A DNA stretch of 64,000 bases from Bacteroidia bacterium (GTDB lineage Bacteria > Bacteroidota > Bacteroidia > M30B66). Below, piece by piece: positions 27,220 to 37,709 of the stretch. The notes under the pieces were generated by a model. The model ran no database searches. It had not been told where the DNA came from and was given only the letters and a program-made list of their open reading frames with translations. The translations under genes were made by a program, and so were the position numbers. Position 1 is the stretch's first letter, and the number at the start of each line of letters is the position of its first letter. The DNA is taken from positions 62,001 through 126,000 of the forward strand of contig JAGYKL010000005.1 of NCBI GenBank assembly GCA_018401705.1, read 5' to 3'.

Positions 27220-29642
27220 ATGGTCGAAAGAAAAATTTCTAATCTGAATGACGAGTTTGACTTTAGGCTTTTTGTTAAAGTCACAAGGAAGAATGTTGCC
27301 TGGATAGTTCTATTTTTTATAATTTCTTTCTTAATGGCCTTCCTCTATTTGAGGTACACATATCCTATTTATGAGGCTAAGTCGATTATCCAAATTGGGC
27401 TTGCTGATAAAAGCTCGAGAGTATTGTTTGGAGATGTAAAGTCCTTAAAAAGTGACCTACCAAGTAAAATTGAGTTATTAAGATCCCCTACTTTTCTAAA
27501 TAGAGTTCTAAACAATCTGCCTCTAGACATTAGCTATTATCAAATTGAAATGTGTTAATTATGAGATGTACAGAACATCTCCGTTTGAAATTGAATATAA
27601 AAATCCAGTAAATGAAATATACAATATTCCAATTTACGTATCATTTACAGATGAAAATAATGCTACCATCTCTGTCAATCTAAATAATAAAGAGACCGTT
27701 TACCGATTAAAAACAGATAGATGGGAAAGGCTGCCAATTATCGATTCTTTAAAAATCACCTTAAAAAACTATGAGAAGATTCGAAGCGATATGCTCGGAT
27801 TAAATGAGAATCCCTATTATGTACTACTTCATAAAAAAGAAAATTTAGTAAGAACATATTCTTCGAATATTGAAATCACGGCTGAGAATGAAGCTGCTGG
27901 AACAATTAAAGTTGTTTTTTATGAACGTAATCCATCTAAAGCATCGGATATTTGCAATACAATAGCTGAGGAGTTCAAAATTTATGATATTGAGAAACAG
28001 GCTCAAAGTGCAAACAACACAATTAAATTCATTGATGGGCAGCTTAAATCAATATATGATAAGCTATACGATAGTGAAGTAGAGTTGCAAAACTTCAAAA
28101 CTAAAAATAGACTTGACGATGAGACGCCCCTCCCCGATTTTGGTTCAAGAATTAATGACTTAGAGGCATCATTTAATAAAATTGAACTTGAAGAAGCTGC
28201 TTTAGAAACTATACAGGATGCTGTAAGTATTGACAAAGACATTGATGTTTATAAGCTTGTGGCATTGTTATCAGGAACCAAATCTGAAGGAATTTTGGCG
28301 AATATGCTTTCCGAATTAAGGACACTAATGTCAAAGAGAGAGCAAACTCTTTATTCAAAAACAAAAAACAGCAGTGAAATTGCTCAGATTGATTATCAAA
28401 TTGATATTCAGCGTAAAATGCTGGTTGAAGCGCTGAGTGCTTTTAAGAAAAGTTTAAATAATCAGAAGGAAGAAGTTCTTGAGAGAATTAAAAACTATGA
28501 AGAAGAAGTTAGAAGCTCTACTTTGAATTTTGACAGGATAGAATTCATACGACTTTCTAAACTTAATGAAATCAGCCAAAATTACTACAATAGATTAGTA
28601 ACGATTAAATCGGAATTAACTATTTCGAATGCAGGTATTACTTCAGAAAACACAGTACTCGAGGCTTCTTCAACACCGGCTTCACCTTATTTTCCTAGCC
28701 GAAGAATAGTTGCATTAAGCGCCTTTCTGGGTTGGCTTATTGTGAGCTTAGCCTTAATTGTTATTAGATATTTATTTCACAATGAGATTACTTCTTTAAA
28801 TGAAATTATGAAGTATCTCGAAGTTCCAGTATTAGGTATCGTTCCAAACTACAAGGATGTAATTCCAATTTCTCAGCTTCTGGTTGATAAAAAGCCAAAG
28901 TCAATTATTGCCGAATCATTAAGATCAATTAGATCTAATCTTGAGTTCCTTTCTACAAAGGATGGCCCCAAAGTTCTGGCCATTACTTCGACAATATCTG
29001 GTGAAGGAAAAACATTTGTTGCTTTGAACCTAGCTGGAATCATTGCATTCTCTGAAAAGAAAGTGATTATCATTGACCTTGACATGAGGAAGCCGAAAAT
29101 CCACGTTGGTTTCGGTGTTCCTAATGATAAAGGGATGAGTACAATACTAATTAATAGGAATACTATTGATGACTGTGTTTTTAAATCCAGCCTCAACAAT
29201 TTGGATTTCATTACCGCAGGACCTGTTCCACCAAACCCATCTGAGCTAATCATAAGCGGAAGAATGCTTGAGGTTTTGGAAGAGCTGAAAACACGATATG
29301 ATGTTATTGTGATTGATAACCCTCCTGTAGGAATTGTAACTGATGGAATTAGAGTTATAAAGTTGGCAGATTATCCAGTATATGTATTTCGCGAGAACTT
29401 CTCTAAAAGAAATTTTGTTCAGAATGTTAAGAAGTTAATACGCGATAACAATATCAAGAACTTGTCAATTATATTGAATTCAGTAGATATTAAGAAATCA
29501 CGCGGGTATTGAGTACGGGTTCTCATTCTATGATTATGATTACGGTTATGGATATGGTTATGGATTTGGATATTATGATGAGGATATTAGGCGCGAGAAA
29601 TTTAGTATTAAAGAATTCCTAAGAAAATTGATTAGTAAGTAA
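27220..29642 (+). CDS. Wzc-type polysaccharide co-polymerase / BY-tyrosine kinase, twice frameshifted as sequenced
   Basis: The whole gene spans three frames. Frame 1 (27220-27558) gives the N-terminal Wzz domain with one TM helix (IVLFFIISFLMAFLYL). Frame 2 (about 27545-29512) gives the periplasmic coiled coil, the second TM helix, and the kinase: Walker A STISGEGKT, Walker A' VIIIDLDMRKPK, Walker B YDVIVIDNPP. Frame 3 (about 29511-29642) gives the Tyr-rich tail (FYDYDYGYGYGYGFGYY), the autophosphorylation cluster of BY-kinases. First junction: restoring a G and an A in runs near 27547 and 27558 would give QIGNVLNYEMY, the family pattern. The repaired protein is about 807 residues. It controls chain length and export together with the Wza-like protein. 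Confidence 0.85.
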
Positions 29643-32322: not shown

Positions 32323-33801
32323 TCATTTTTCAACCCAAAGCAAAGAATTTCCATTTCCAAACTCGTTTTCTTCCCACAGCTCATTTGCTGGATCTTTTAT
32401 CCAATTACCGTCAACGATAAACTTATAAGTGTACTTTCCTGGATCCAAATGAAGTTCAAAGGTCCATGCATCTTCATGCTTCTCCATTTTGAAGGCTTGC
32501 TCATTCCATCCGCAAAAAGAACCTGTTAGAATGACCTCTTTGGCATTTGAAAAACCATTCAACTTAAAGGTGTAATTAGGTTTAACCACAAGAAATGAAT
32601 TCTTATTTCCTGCTCCATCATCTATTGTTATCGGATTCTTAGGGTCTAACACCCACTGTTCATCAACCACAAACTTGTATTGATAATTACCTGGTGATAA
32701 AACGTAAGGCAATTGCCATTCTCTACCTACTTTACTTAATGCAAGTTCAGATGGGTTCCAATCATTAAATTCACCAGATACAAATACATTTCTGGCATCG
32801 GGATATTGATCCACAGTAAAAAGTTGAGGTTTTCCTAAAGCTAAAACAGAATTAAACCCTCCATTCCCATCAGGGACTTTTTGGCTATTTGATGTATCAG
32901 TAATCCAATCACCATCGGCAACAAACTTATATGTGTAGGTTCCTTCTACTAAATACACCGGAAGCATGAATATGCCATTTTTAACTTTATTCATCCTTAT
33001 TTTCTTAGGATTCCAATCGTTAAATGAACCGCTTAGAAAGACCTTCTTTGTCTCGTAATCTCCTGTAAAGCTGAATTCGTGATTAGTGACATAATAAACT
33101 GAATTATTCCCATTGTAGCCGTCATCCTCACTAATATTATTACTCTTATCAGAGATCCATTTGCCATCAACAATGTATTTGTACAGGTACTTTCCCGGCT
33201 TTAGGTCTAACTCAGTTTCCCAAGCATTTCCTTTTCTTTCAAGCTTCAATTTTTGTGTGCTCCATTGATTGAAAGAGCCGGACAGAAGTACTTCTGAGGC
33301 TGATTCATAGCCTTCTAATCTAAAAATCGTTAACCCATTATTTGATGTCTTTGGGAATTCTCCTTTCAAATCATTAACTCCAATTTTACCATGCATTATA
33401 GGAATGCCTGGGTGATTTTCAGAAACGAACATTGAAGAAAGGAGCATATGAGAATTAGGATTCGAGAAATCAGCTACCGGCTCCAAGCTACGTCTAAGTT
33501 CAATTCCTTTTTTACCTCTGTCTTTAACTATCCACCCGTTATTTGTGAAAGATGAATAATCTCCTTGAAGCAAAGCCTTTATTGGCTCCGGTGTTTCAAT
33601 GCCAAACTTAGACAACACCGAATCTTGCATACTGGCAACCATCGCCTTATCAAAACGGATTACAATTTGACCATCTTCAAAGAAATATTCTGGGCTATAA
33701 CCCTTCCCAGTTTGCCCCAAACCATCAGTTTGAAAACATACAAAGCTCAGGAATATCAAAGCCAATTTGAGCAAGGTTGAGGTGGCAAAAGTTTTCACCA
33801 T
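32323..33801 (-). CDS. Exported protein with four tandem CBM48 / AMPK-type glycogen-binding domains
   Basis: 492 residues with a signal peptide (LLKLALIFLSFVCF). After an N-terminal unknown part of about 160 residues come four E-set modules of about 80 residues. Each has the pattern (V/L)SGSFNxW, then LxPGxYxYKFxVDGxWxxD. Examples: LLSGSFNQWS, FLSGSFNDWN, FVSGEFNDWN, LTGSFCGWN. CBM48/AMPK-beta domains bind alpha-glucans or act as protein docking modules. No catalytic domain is present. It overlaps the aspartyl protease gene by 7 bp, so the two are co-expressed. Possible roles are glycan binding at the cell surface or scaffolding; neither is shown. Confidence 0.85.
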   Translation of the reverse strand: MVKTFATSTLLKLALIFLSFVCFQTDGLGQTGKGYSPEYFFEDGQIVIRFDKAMVASMQDSVLSKFGIETPEPIKALLQGDYSSFTNNGWIVKDRGKKGIELRRSLEPVADFSNPNSHMLLSSMFVSENHPGIPIMHGKIGVNDLKGEFPKTSNNGLTIFRLEGYESASEVLLSGSFNQWSTQKLKLERKGNAWETELDLKPGKYLYKYIVDGKWISDKSNNISEDDGYNGNNSVYYVTNHEFSFTGDYETKKVFLSGSFNDWNPKKIRMNKVKNGIFMLPVYLVEGTYTYKFVADGDWITDTSNSQKVPDGNGGFNSVLALGKPQLFTVDQYPDARNVFVSGEFNDWNPSELALSKVGREWQLPYVLSPGNYQYKFVVDEQWVLDPKNPITIDDGAGNKNSFLVVKPNYTFKLNGFSNAKEVILTGSFCGWNEQAFKMEKHEDAWTFELHLDPGKYTYKFIVDGNWIKDPANELWEENEFGNGNSLLWVEK

Positions 33802-34757
33802 ATTATCAATTCTTTATTATAAAGATTTATCGACATCCGGCCGGAGGCCAAAAAATCATAACCAAGCATGCCATCTATACGAGTGCCATATGATGTGCTC
33901 AAACCATTTAGATTAGCAACGGTAACAGGTACAGAATTCAGTTTAAAATCATCGAACGATAAATCTCGAAGTTTGCCACTAAGCACCTCTATGGTCTTAC
34001 CTCCAGAACCTATCAATCTTCTACTTCCGGTAATTTCGATATTTTCGAAAGCTTTCTTTGGAGCTCCTGAATTAATAACACAACTTTCTGCACCAGTATC
34101 GATATACATCCTCAATTTTTTGCTATTTAAACTTCCCATAATTATGAGAACTCCCGACTGATCCTCGATTTTTATAATCTGTTTTGGTTTTGCAGAATGA
34201 GTTTTGTCAAGCATCAAAGTTTCGCCTTTGCGGTTTAACCTATATAGGGTTAGTGTGCTTTGTTCAATGTCAATCAGCATTTCCAGGTTTTTAAAGAGAT
34301 TTAGTCCTAGCAAACCAAGAATCTTTAGGCCTTTCTTCTCTTCTAAATGAGAGAGAGAAATCATATCTGCATCAACATCGTCAAAAAAGAGTCCGCCAAA
34401 ATCAAGTTTCCCTAACCTAATCTCGGCCCCAGGACTCGCCGAACCTGTTATTCCTGAGGCATATACAGAGCCAAACGTTGGATAATTTCTAAAATAGGTT
34501 TTGTTAAGCACCAAATGAGGAGCTCCAGTGTCCAGAATGAAGTTCCCAGATAAAGAGTCGGCTTTAACTTCTAGCATTAAGAGATTTCCTGCTCGCTTAA
34601 TTGGTAATGTGAGAATTAATTCATCTCCCTTTGGTTTAGGATCAGGGTATGTAGAAACATGAGGGAATTTTTTCTTCAGCAAATCGCCTTTGTAAAATTC
34701 GCCATTCACAGCAAAAACTGTAGCGAACAACAAGCATAGTAAGCTGAGTAATCTCAT
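33795..34757 (-). CDS. Exported retropepsin-like aspartyl protease with two DTGA sites
   Basis: 320 residues with a signal peptide (LLSLLCLLFATVFAVNG). Two Asp-protease folds are joined in one chain: the first catalytic motif is FILDTGAPHL (Asp near residue 76), the second MYIDTGAESCVIN (Asp near 220). Each is followed by the flap and hydrophobic-hydrophobic-Gly segments of the family (IKILGLLGLNLF, GMLGYDFLASG). The pair of active Asp on one chain suggests a self-contained enzyme rather than an obligate dimer. No PDZ domain is present. It heads a two-gene operon with the CBM48-repeat protein, a plausible substrate or partner. Confidence 0.85.
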   Translation of the reverse strand: MRLLSLLCLLFATVFAVNGEFYKGDLLKKKFPHVSTYPDPKPKGDELILTLPIKRAGNLLMLEVKADSLSGNFILDTGAPHLVLNKTYFRNYPTFGSVYASGITGSASPGAEIRLGKLDFGGLFFDDVDADMISLSHLEEKKGLKILGLLGLNLFKNLEMLIDIEQSTLTLYRLNRKGETLMLDKTHSAKPKQIIKIEDQSGVLIIMGSLNSKKLRMYIDTGAESCVINSGAPKKAFENIEITGSRRLIGSGGKTIEVLSGKLRDLSFDDFKLNSVPVTVANLNGLSTSYGTRIDGMLGYDFLASGRMSINLYNKELIIW

Positions 34758-34825: not shown

Positions 34826-34833
34826 TAATTTTG
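34826..34833 (+). promoter_or_regulatory. Putative uvrA -7 element TAATTTTG
   Basis: A full match to TAnnTTTG, 15 bases before the uvrA ATG at 34849. A TTG start at 34831 would lie inside this element, which supports the ATG. No -33 TTTG at standard spacing. Confidence 0.4.
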
Positions 34834-34848
34834 CCTCTTTATTTTTCG

Positions 34849-37709
34849 ATGCAAAAAAAGGATAGCTCTAAGGATTCATTTATTGAAATTTATGGAGCAA
34901 GGGAACATAATTTAAGGAATATAGACCTCAGCATACCAAGGAATAAATTGGTAGTGATTACAGGTTTAAGCGGGAGCGGAAAGTCGTCGATTGCGTTCGA
35001 TACTATTTATGCAGAAGGTCAGCGACGTTATATAGAGAGTTTCTCTGCATATGCAAGGCAATTCCTTGGCAATATGGAAAGACCTGATGTTGATAAGATT
35101 ACAGGGCTTAGTCCAGTAATTTCTATTGAGCAAAAGACTACAGGTAAAAACCCTAGGTCAACTGTTGGCACAATTACAGAGATCTACGATTTCATGCGTT
35201 TACTTTTTGCACGAGCAGGAGATGCGTTTTCGTATAATACTGGCGAAAAAATGGTCCGCTATTCTGAGCAGCAGATTCTTGAACTCATTCTGAATGACTA
35301 CGAAGGAATGCGCATTAGCATGCTTGCTCCACTAATTAAGGGTAGAAAAGGTCATTATCGCGAATTATTTGAGCAAATAAGCAGAAAAAGGGCTTCTGAA
35401 AGTTCAAAGGATGGTGAACAGAGACATTACCTTCGGTATGAAACTAGACCGATATAAGGTCTATAGATATTGAGATAGTAATTGATAGAATTGGAAGTAA
35501 ACGAGAAGCAAAAACTGAAGAGTTTTAGACTCGTTTAACCCTGCTGGCCATGAAACATGGCAAGGGAAGCATAATGATATTAGAAGCTGAGTAAGAAAAC
35601 AATCAGGCATTTTAGTAAATACCTCATGTGCCCAAGTACAGGTATTTAGTGATTTGTTTCAGCTCCTAACCTATTCTCATTTAACTCACCTTATGGAGCT
35701 TGTCCACACTGTCATGGTTTAGAAAAGTTGCTCAAGTTGATATTCATAAAATAATTCCAGACCCTAGAATATCCATTAAAAAAGGAGGTATTGCTCCGTT
35801 GGGTGAATATAAGAACAATTGGATTTTCGCCCAGGTTGAAGCAATAGCTGATAAATACGGTTTTAAAATCAGCGATGCGATTGAGGATATTGATGAATCT
35901 GCCATAGATGCAATTCTTTATGGTACAGAGGAGATTCTGAAAATTAAGAACCCAAGCTATAATTCAAATGGTTATGCAATGCAGTTCAATGGAATTGTAA
36001 ACTTTATCGCAGATCAGCATGAAGAGCGTCATACCGAAGGCACTAAATCTTGGGCCGAGGAATTTATGAACGACGTAACTTGTCCTGAATGCGAAGGCAA
36101 CAGAATAAAAAAGCAAGCTCTTTGGTTTAAAATAGGCGATAAAAACATCGCTGATTTGGCTAAGCTGGATATTTCTGACCTTGAAACATGGTTTATGCAT
36201 GTGGAGGAATCGATGCATGAACGCCAATTGGCTATTGGACAAGAAGTTATTAAAGAAATTCGGACAAGAATCGGATTTCTGATGGATGTTGGATTAGATT
36301 ATCTCACGCTTAATCGAAGTGCAGGAAGTTTATCTGGCGGTGAATCTCAGCGAATTAGACTGGCAACTCAAATTGGGTCAAAACTAGTTGGAGTTTTATA
36401 TATCCTTGATGAACCAAGCATTGGTTTGCATCAAAGAGACAATGTTAGACTTATAAAGGCTTTGCAAGATTTGAGAGACGCTGGTAATTCGGTAATTGTT
36501 GTTGAGCACGACAAGGACATGATTATGGCAGCAGATTGGGTGATTGATGTGGGGCCTGGCGCAGGAGTTCACGGTGGTAAAATTGTTGCACAGGGCAGCC
36601 CAGAAAGCCTTTACGCTGGAGATTCTACTACATCTTTATATCTTAGAAACGAGAAGCAAATTGCGTTACCTGAAAAAAGAAGGGAAGGAAATGGCAATAG
36701 TTTAAAATTACTTGGTGCAAGTGGCAACAATTTGAAGAATATAAATGTGAGTTTTCCTTTGGGAACCTTTATTTGTGTTACAGGAGTTTCAGGAAGCGGG
36801 AAATCTACATTGATTAATGAAACCTTGTACCCAATACTTAATCACCATATTTACAGGTCATTAAAAAAACCTCTTCCATATAAAAAGATTGAAGGGCTGA
36901 AGCATATAGACAAGGTAATTGACATAGATCAAAGTCCGATAGGCAGAACACCACGTTCGAATCCAGCAACTTACACAGGTGTATTTTCAGATATTAGAAG
37001 TTTGTTCGCTTCTTTGCCAGAGGCAGCGATTAGGGGTTATAAGCCTGGAAGATTTTCTTTTAACGTTAAAGGCGGACGATGCGAAACCTGTTCAGGTGGA
37101 GGCATGCAGGTTATTGAGATGAATTTCTTGCCTGATGTTTACGTTCAATGCCCAACATGCCAGGGTAAAAGATATAATCGTGAAACGCTTGAGGTACGCT
37201 ATCGCGGGAAGTCAATAAGTGATATTCTTGCTATGACTATAGATCAAGCAGTTGAGTTTTTTGAGAACATTCCAAGCATTCTGCATAAGATAAAAACAAT
37301 TCAGGAGGTTGGTTTAGGATATGTTTCACTTGGACAATCTTCAACTACTCTAAGCGGAGGAGAAGCTCAGCGCGTTAAACTAGCAACTGAACTTTCAAAG
37401 AAGGATACTGGAAATACCTTTTATATCTTAGACGAGCCTACAACCGGTTTGCATTTTGAGGATATTCGTATTTTGCTTGATGTACTTCAAAAATTAGTAG
37501 ACAGAGGCAATACGGTGCTAGTGATTGAACATAATATGGATATGATTAAAGTTGCAGATTACATTATTGACATTGGGCCAGAAGGCGGCGAACGAGGGGG
37601 AACTTTAATAACAACGGGAACTCCAGAGAAAATTGCTGAGCATAAAAGCAGTTTCACATCTGCATTTTTAAAACAAGAATTAAACGAATTAAAAGTATAT
37701 GGACAATAA
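34849..37709 (+). pseudogene. uvrA: Excinuclease ABC subunit A, internally frameshifted as sequenced
   Basis: UvrA finds bulky DNA lesions and loads UvrB. The N-terminal part (34849-35457) has Walker [10 protein letters not shown] and the conserved [16 protein letters not shown]. The C-terminal part (about 35722-37709) has the signature LSGGESQRIRLA, the second Walker A GVSGSGKST, the zinc finger CETCSGGGMQV / CPTCQGKRYN, and LSGGEAQRVKLA. Between about 35391 and 35724 the conserved sequence hops between frames: [11 protein letters not shown] in frame 2, DIEIVIDRI and MKHGKGSIMILEAE in frame 0, YLMCPSTGI and [14 protein letters not shown] in frame 1, [13 protein letters not shown] in frame 0. 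Total span (about 953 codons) matches the family (E. coli 940), so net loss is small. As written it cannot encode UvrA. Confidence 0.9.

Follow-up and report, generated by a model that had tools for sequence, protein, structure and literature searches.

A 64,000 bp stretch of a Bacteroidia bacterium genome (assembly GCA_018401705.1, contig JAGYKL010000005.1, positions 62,001 to 126,000; hereafter the window) was found to encode, on its reverse strand, an aspartic protease and, directly downstream of it, a protein with four carbohydrate-binding modules (CBMs) of family CBM48. These two genes form a tightly linked pair across many orders of Bacteroidota and the two proteins very probably work together. 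Our preferred reading, to which we give a probability of about two in five, is that the two act in the cell envelope as a module of two components dedicated to alpha-glucan-targeted proteolysis. It is preferred because the pair is near-obligate and overlapping, both N-termini are of the exported type, both catalytic aspartates are retained and all four binding sites have been kept. An earlier note, made from the DNA letters of the window, had described two overlapping genes here; both open reading frames (ORFs) and their 7 bp overlap were confirmed, and their coordinates are given in Table 1.

A search of 80 genomes close to that of the window with both proteins revealed a long protease match (at least 37% identity) in six of them besides the window's own genome. 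All six, one of which belonged to another family, carried the adjoining CBM protein. The protease profile alone, searched against a collection of 84,980 species, gave at least 148 relatives, the best 80 of which were used as named loci; the titles among these include Chitinophagaceae, Mucilaginibacter, Rufibacter, Cyclobacteriaceae, Saprospiraceae, Owenweeksia and 'Bacteroidales' metagenome-assembled genomes. An ORF encoding a CBM array lay within 400 bp downstream and on the same strand in 76 of the 80 loci and, as the start of a CBM gene was present at L108 before the contig ended, a CBM gene was found directly downstream in 77/80 overall. The ends of the two genes overlapped in 68 of the 76 homologous pairs, mostly by 10 or 4 bp when longest-ORF starts were assumed. 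At L125 (6001–7818) the two were fused in a single ORF of 605 amino acids that covered the protease as far as a point shortly after its second catalytic site and continued, from the linker of the CBM protein onwards, into the CBM array. This ORF therefore had neither the remainder of lobe 2 nor the CBM protein's N-terminal domain, and may be a real fusion (by deletion) or an assembly error. L114 and L130 encoded the protease without a CBM gene (2/80). Downstream of the protease at L114 (1347–4519) was a large ORF that by inspection was sensor-kinase-like with propeller-type repeats.

A further 395 Bacteroidia genomes, sampled evenly, were analysed as well. The protease matched at E ≤ 1e-10 in 119 of these, mostly partially and in other aspartic proteases, and the CBM protein matched at E ≤ 1e-40 in 19, six of them from the window's own family; it adjoined a protease match in 19/19. 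A twentieth pair, with a weaker score, was present in G272. The ten protease loci that ranked next in this sample (L151–L160) had no CBM array within their 1.5 kb flanks. In a sample of the phylum 8 of 296 genomes matched, all within the window's class, the number of other classes drawn not being given. Co-occurrence across Bacteroidota, which the earlier note had proposed to look for, and conservation beyond close relatives, whose lack it had named beforehand as its refutation, were therefore both found. No third conserved gene was detected, as the commonest neighbour cluster outside the pair occurred in just 8 of the 80 loci and no other cluster in more, so that the module looks self-contained.

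Pfam analysis of the protease revealed Asp_protease_2 (PF13650) in two stretches (65.7 bits against a cut-off of 24.3), and each of the two lobes also exceeded the cut-off separately. Its description in the earlier note as a duplicated aspartyl protease with two DTGA sites was correct, because a profile comparison of lobe 1 with lobe 2 (hhalign) gave a probability of 98.5 with an E-value of 2.5e-15 at 20% identity; the sites are at D76 and D220. The catalytic Asp was invariant at both sites in 84/84 sequences, a set from which three loci repeating members already included had been dropped, and the residues following the second Asp varied (DTGA, DSGA, DCGA, DCAA and similar). The AlphaFold2 model had a predicted local distance difference test score (pLDDT) of 91.6. 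Its best match among solved structures was 9iy9, a putative endopeptidase of B. fragilis (Z 22.3, 261 residues, root-mean-square deviation (rmsd) 3.2, 16% identity), with pepsins and renins ranking next at Z of about 18. 9iy9 is a 420-residue chain in which the aligned part starts at entry residue 137, and was compared by title and structure only. A phmmer search of solved structures with the protease found no relative, none of 80 protease members matched pepsin family A1 (PF00026) at E ≤ 0.01, and TIGR02281 (clan_AA_DTGA) reached 33.7 bits, under its curated cut-off of 57.95. Retropepsins are homodimers of one-lobe chains, whereas this protein has two homologous lobes in a single chain, which makes it a relative of the retropepsins but not a typical one. 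As judged from sequence and model, it is a single-chain tandem retropepsin of pepsin-like shape that lies outside the pepsin Pfam model, with predicted protease activity. The candidate defence model PDC-M08B of PADLOC matched lobe 2 (1.5e-13), which probably reflects the shared retropepsin fold only, and the CBM protein matched none of these models. Elsewhere in the window's genome Asp_protease_2 was found in one further place, a frame of 157 amino acids.

The CBM protein was matched in four stretches by AMPK1_CBM (PF16561; 207.1 bits against a cut-off of 26.8) and CBM_48 (PF02922; 79.6 against 22.4), and such matches were present in 69/69 of its homologues. No catalytic glycan-active domain was found by Pfam in this protein, its homologues also being scanned, which bore out the earlier description of four CBM48 modules without a catalytic domain. 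Its AlphaFold2 model (pLDDT 88.0) was confident for the four modules and moderate for the N-terminal domain. A fold search with the whole protein was dominated by the CBM modules, which matched the glycogen-binding domain of AMPK beta1 (1z0n_B; Z 14.5, 78 residues, rmsd 1.1) and the AMPK beta CBMs solved with cyclodextrin. All 16 predicted sugar-contact positions, four each of the W, K, W and N that we take to be the sugar-contacting residues of AMPK beta, were present in the window protein. Aromatic binding residues, whose absence the earlier note had set as a further ground for refutation, were accordingly retained in all four modules. Among 71 homologues the W, K, W and N were conserved in 69, 70, 71 and 71 sequences in module 1, in 69, 39 (R in 29), 67 and 68 in module 2, in 71, 44 (R in 17), 51 and 61 in module 3, the least conserved site, and in 67, 68, 69 and 71 in module 4; truncated, two-module and duplicate rows were excluded from both the 69- and the 71-sequence sets.

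Two parts of the CBM protein go beyond what the earlier note described, an N-terminal domain and a low-confidence linker that joins it to the CBM array. The domain was predicted to consist of strands and short helices (block pLDDT about 66–84); Pfam matched nothing there in the window protein, and no family recurred there in many homologues. When 17 genomes were scanned with PF16561, every one of the 33 best matches was in this CBM protein. Weaker AMPK1_CBM matches were seen in several other, clustered long ORFs (589 to 1308 amino acids) of the pair-bearing genome G291 (C1:1052248–1060189 and 1554893–1555783). Shorter CBM partners of about 313–340 amino acids with two to three detected modules were encoded at L115, L120, L124, L126 and L128 and in G314, G320, G205, G576 and G272 and, where these were aligned, the binding residues were retained in the last two modules.

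The earlier note had given both proteins signal peptides, and their hydrophobic N-termini fit this: 73/80 protease and 71/73 CBM homologues passed a hydropathy test, which is a simple test and not a trained predictor. Most of the CBM proteins had a cleavage site of the A-Q type, as is typical for signal peptidase I in Bacteroidota. No C-terminal sorting domain of the type IX secretion system (T9SS) was found in 69 CBM homologues (Pfam, E ≤ 0.05) or in the window proteins (NCBIfam). The lipobox was rare, and a Cys at the cleavage site suggests that a few CBM proteins (L116, L123 and G126) are lipoproteins. With no T9SS sorting domain and few lipoboxes, the periplasm appears more likely than the surface for most members. 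The surface scaffold put forward in the earlier note is therefore not supported, and a surface location would hold for a few members at best. A match to the Type IX secretion plug protein (NF052315) was rejected at 46.8 bits against a cut-off of 100; the genome's own plug protein is encoded elsewhere.

If the pair does direct proteolysis to alpha-glucan, the overlapping gene ends would couple translation and so ensure joint synthesis of the two proteins. The CBM protein would attach to the protease, possibly by way of its N-terminal domain, and the four CBM48 modules would anchor the complex to an alpha-1,4-glucan (glycogen, starch or maltodextrin), either in the periplasm or on envelope material that has been released. 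Material bound to glucan would then set the limits of proteolysis or switch it, with the CBM protein tethering or gating the protease. Such an arrangement would resemble AMPK beta and, reportedly, plant PTST, which are CBM48 adaptors without catalytic activity that bring an enzyme to glucan, here with a protease as cargo. A glucan-gated protease, in which binding of alpha-glucan to a four-module CBM48 receptor switches activity or target choice, is doubtful.

Several points weigh against alpha-glucan-targeted proteolysis. Direct contact between the protease and the CBM protein is something that we infer, and the N-terminal domain, as the proposed contact site, was the least conserved part of the CBM protein among the 71 homologues. 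The source of an exported alpha-glucan is left unexplained. The distances in the protease and CBM trees were correlated (r 0.911 over 66 pairs, permuted maximum 0.23), which speaks for the reading, but this value was computed without a species-tree control. The remaining points come from a comparison of 19 pair-bearing with 28 pair-less genomes, hand-picked from the same families where possible, with less complete genomes left out (pair-bearing G001, G007 and G254 and pair-less G002, G009 and G230, among others). Own glycogen synthesis was rejected as a discriminator, as the glycogen synthase GlgA was over its cut-off in 10/19 pair-bearing and 15/28 pair-less genomes, which is no association. 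At least one GH13 was present in 18/19 against 21/28 (p 0.12, weak), and at least three in 18/19 against 16/28 (p 0.007), a threshold that was chosen afterwards in genomes that are not independent. G126 encoded the pair with no GH13 match at E ≤ 1e-15, and its CBM protein had four near-complete W/K/W/N sites with one K replaced by R. From the GlgA and GH13 counts and from G126 it follows that neither glycogen storage nor amylase-based feeding simply accounts for the pair. T9SS presence was likewise discarded as a discriminator (plug protein in 19/19 pair-bearing and 26/28 pair-less genomes). Membership of a fixed polysaccharide-utilisation cluster was rejected for the 80 loci, where clustering of the neighbours, as opposed to Pfam profiling, gave no conserved neighbour.

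Close to the adaptor-protease reading in likelihood is a reading in which the protease has the CBM protein as its substrate, the linker being cut and the CBM array freed from the N-terminal domain as a maturation step or a glucan-responsive switch; this comes near the suggestion of the earlier note that the CBM protein could be matured by its protease. The same near-obligate pairing speaks for it, the stretch with pLDDT below 50 falls exactly where the N-terminal domain gives way to the CBM array, and a bacterial peptidase that matures surface proteins proteolytically is reportedly the subject of PMC10414592. Set against this, the linker was variable in sequence, a hydrophobic cleavage-type strip in it went beyond the protein's own shuffles in only 24/71 CBM homologues, and the L125 fusion, if real, lacks part of the linker together with the N-terminal domain. 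It is unlikely that the CBM48 modules recognise a protein or some ligand other than alpha-glucan, in which case the pair would be a protease for envelope homeostasis and its regulatory subunit, comparable to RloA of P. aeruginosa with its operon partners. The nine of 19 pair-bearing genomes without GlgA over its cut-off and the one without GH13 would suit this, but the AMPK beta sugar-contacting residues were retained at all four sites, which would not be required if the modules were structural alone.

A nutritional role is improbable; here the CBM protein would gather the protease on particles of starch or glycogen, where proteins attached to the glucan would be removed and amylases would gain access to it. 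The multivalent alpha-glucan-type modules and the GH13 of 18 of the 19 pair-bearing genomes speak for it; G126, which has none, and the want of a conserved neighbour gene in the 80 loci speak against it, and with 0/69 homologues having a T9SS sorting domain the reach to extracellular particles is unexplained. That the genes are functionally unrelated and linked only by inherited gene order is very improbable. The protease and CBM trees do agree (20 of 31 well-supported protease splits recurred in the CBM tree), as plain vertical descent would also give, but flanking genes vary among the loci while the pair stays together, and the overlap has been retained in most pairs.

The CBM protein shares with AMPK beta and plant PTST the AMPK-type CBM48 fold, the W/K/W/N site and the lack of a glycan-active domain of its own, and differs from them in its four tandem modules, its bacterial export and its aspartic protease partner, where theirs is a kinase or a starch synthase. 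SusE and SusF are non-catalytic, surface starch-binding lipoproteins of Bacteroidota with several binding modules, encoded in the sus operon; in contrast, the CBM gene described here has a protease gene as its partner, and no third gene is conserved beside the two. Shewasin D and other bacterial pepsins are likewise pepsin-like aspartic proteases in bacteria, but shewasin D is said to be intracellular and the lobes of the window protease match retropepsin-type Pfam models and not PF00026. RloA of P. aeruginosa shows that secreted retropepsin-like enzymes can function in the physiology of the envelope together with proteins encoded in their operon (PMC12239564). RloA1-3 are thus alike in being exported bacterial retropepsin-like proteases encoded with partner genes, but they are dimers with one lobe per chain, and their partners are RloB and RloC (an inactive transglutaminase and an ATP-grasp protein), without CBM48 (PMC12239564).

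The earlier note knew of no described system with this pairing. Literature searches fit this, as a retropepsin or aspartyl protease paired with CBM48 was not found among the open-licence papers listed, although the searches were mostly empty, which limits their weight. The parts are of known kinds; the system is new as a variant, through the conservation of the pair, the tandem form of its retropepsin and the four modules of its exported CBM48 protein. The pair gives a functional clue for a group of exported Bacteroidota proteases and would tie alpha-glucan recognition to proteolysis, and its protease, with two retropepsin lobes naturally in one chain, stands halfway from the dimeric retropepsins to the pepsins. 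Cultured hosts that encode the pair (Rufibacter, Mucilaginibacter and Terrimonas) make it directly testable. If true, glucan gating would make the pair an as yet undescribed proteolytic switch by which bacteria sense sugar, with a wide distribution in Bacteroidota.

Table 1. Features of the protease–CBM pair in the window (residue numbers are those of the respective protein).
Feature	Position (bp)	Strand	Basis or remark
Predicted exported bilobal aspartic protease, 320 aa	33795..34757	-	Pfam PF13650, AlphaFold2, structure matches, invariant Asp
Protease regions: hydrophobic N-terminus (~1-20), lobe 1 (~44-176, D76-TGA), lobe 2 (~190-320, D220-TGA)			
Overlap of protease stop and CBM gene start, 7 bp	33795..33801	-	Overlapping ends conserved in relatives
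Predicted exported non-catalytic four-module CBM48/AMPK1_CBM protein, 492 aa	32323..33801	-	Pfam, AlphaFold2, 1z0n match
N-terminal domain of CBM protein (~38-105)	33487..33690	-	Without Pfam family; conserved G89-W90
Poorly ordered linker (~106-145), N-terminal domain to CBM array	33367..33486	-	pLDDT < 50 at 109-133
CBM48 module 1 (~157-240), W180/K208/W215/N233	33082..33333	-	Pfam
CBM48 module 2 (~241-322), W263/K292/W299/N317	32836..33081	-	Pfam
CBM48 module 3 (~326-407), W348/K376/W383/N401	32581..32826	-	Pfam
CBM48 module 4 (~410-492), W432/K460/W467/N485, conserved WEENE..GNS..W strip	32326..32574	-	Pfam

The pair is flanked by uvrA and by an exopolysaccharide-type cluster that is oriented towards it. 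These flanking genes were named by inspection of their translations, with the exception of the adjoining transglycosylase (Pfam). In the window uvrA (34831–37709, forward strand) was in two frames of 208 and 669 amino acids with the intervening stretch in another frame, whereas in the relative L046 it was one ORF of 955 amino acids; the break is likely to result from assembly or sequencing errors. An exopolysaccharide tyrosine-kinase-like gene (27220–29512, forward strand) was similarly found as 112 and 655 amino acids in different frames in the window and as one ORF of 807 amino acids in L045.
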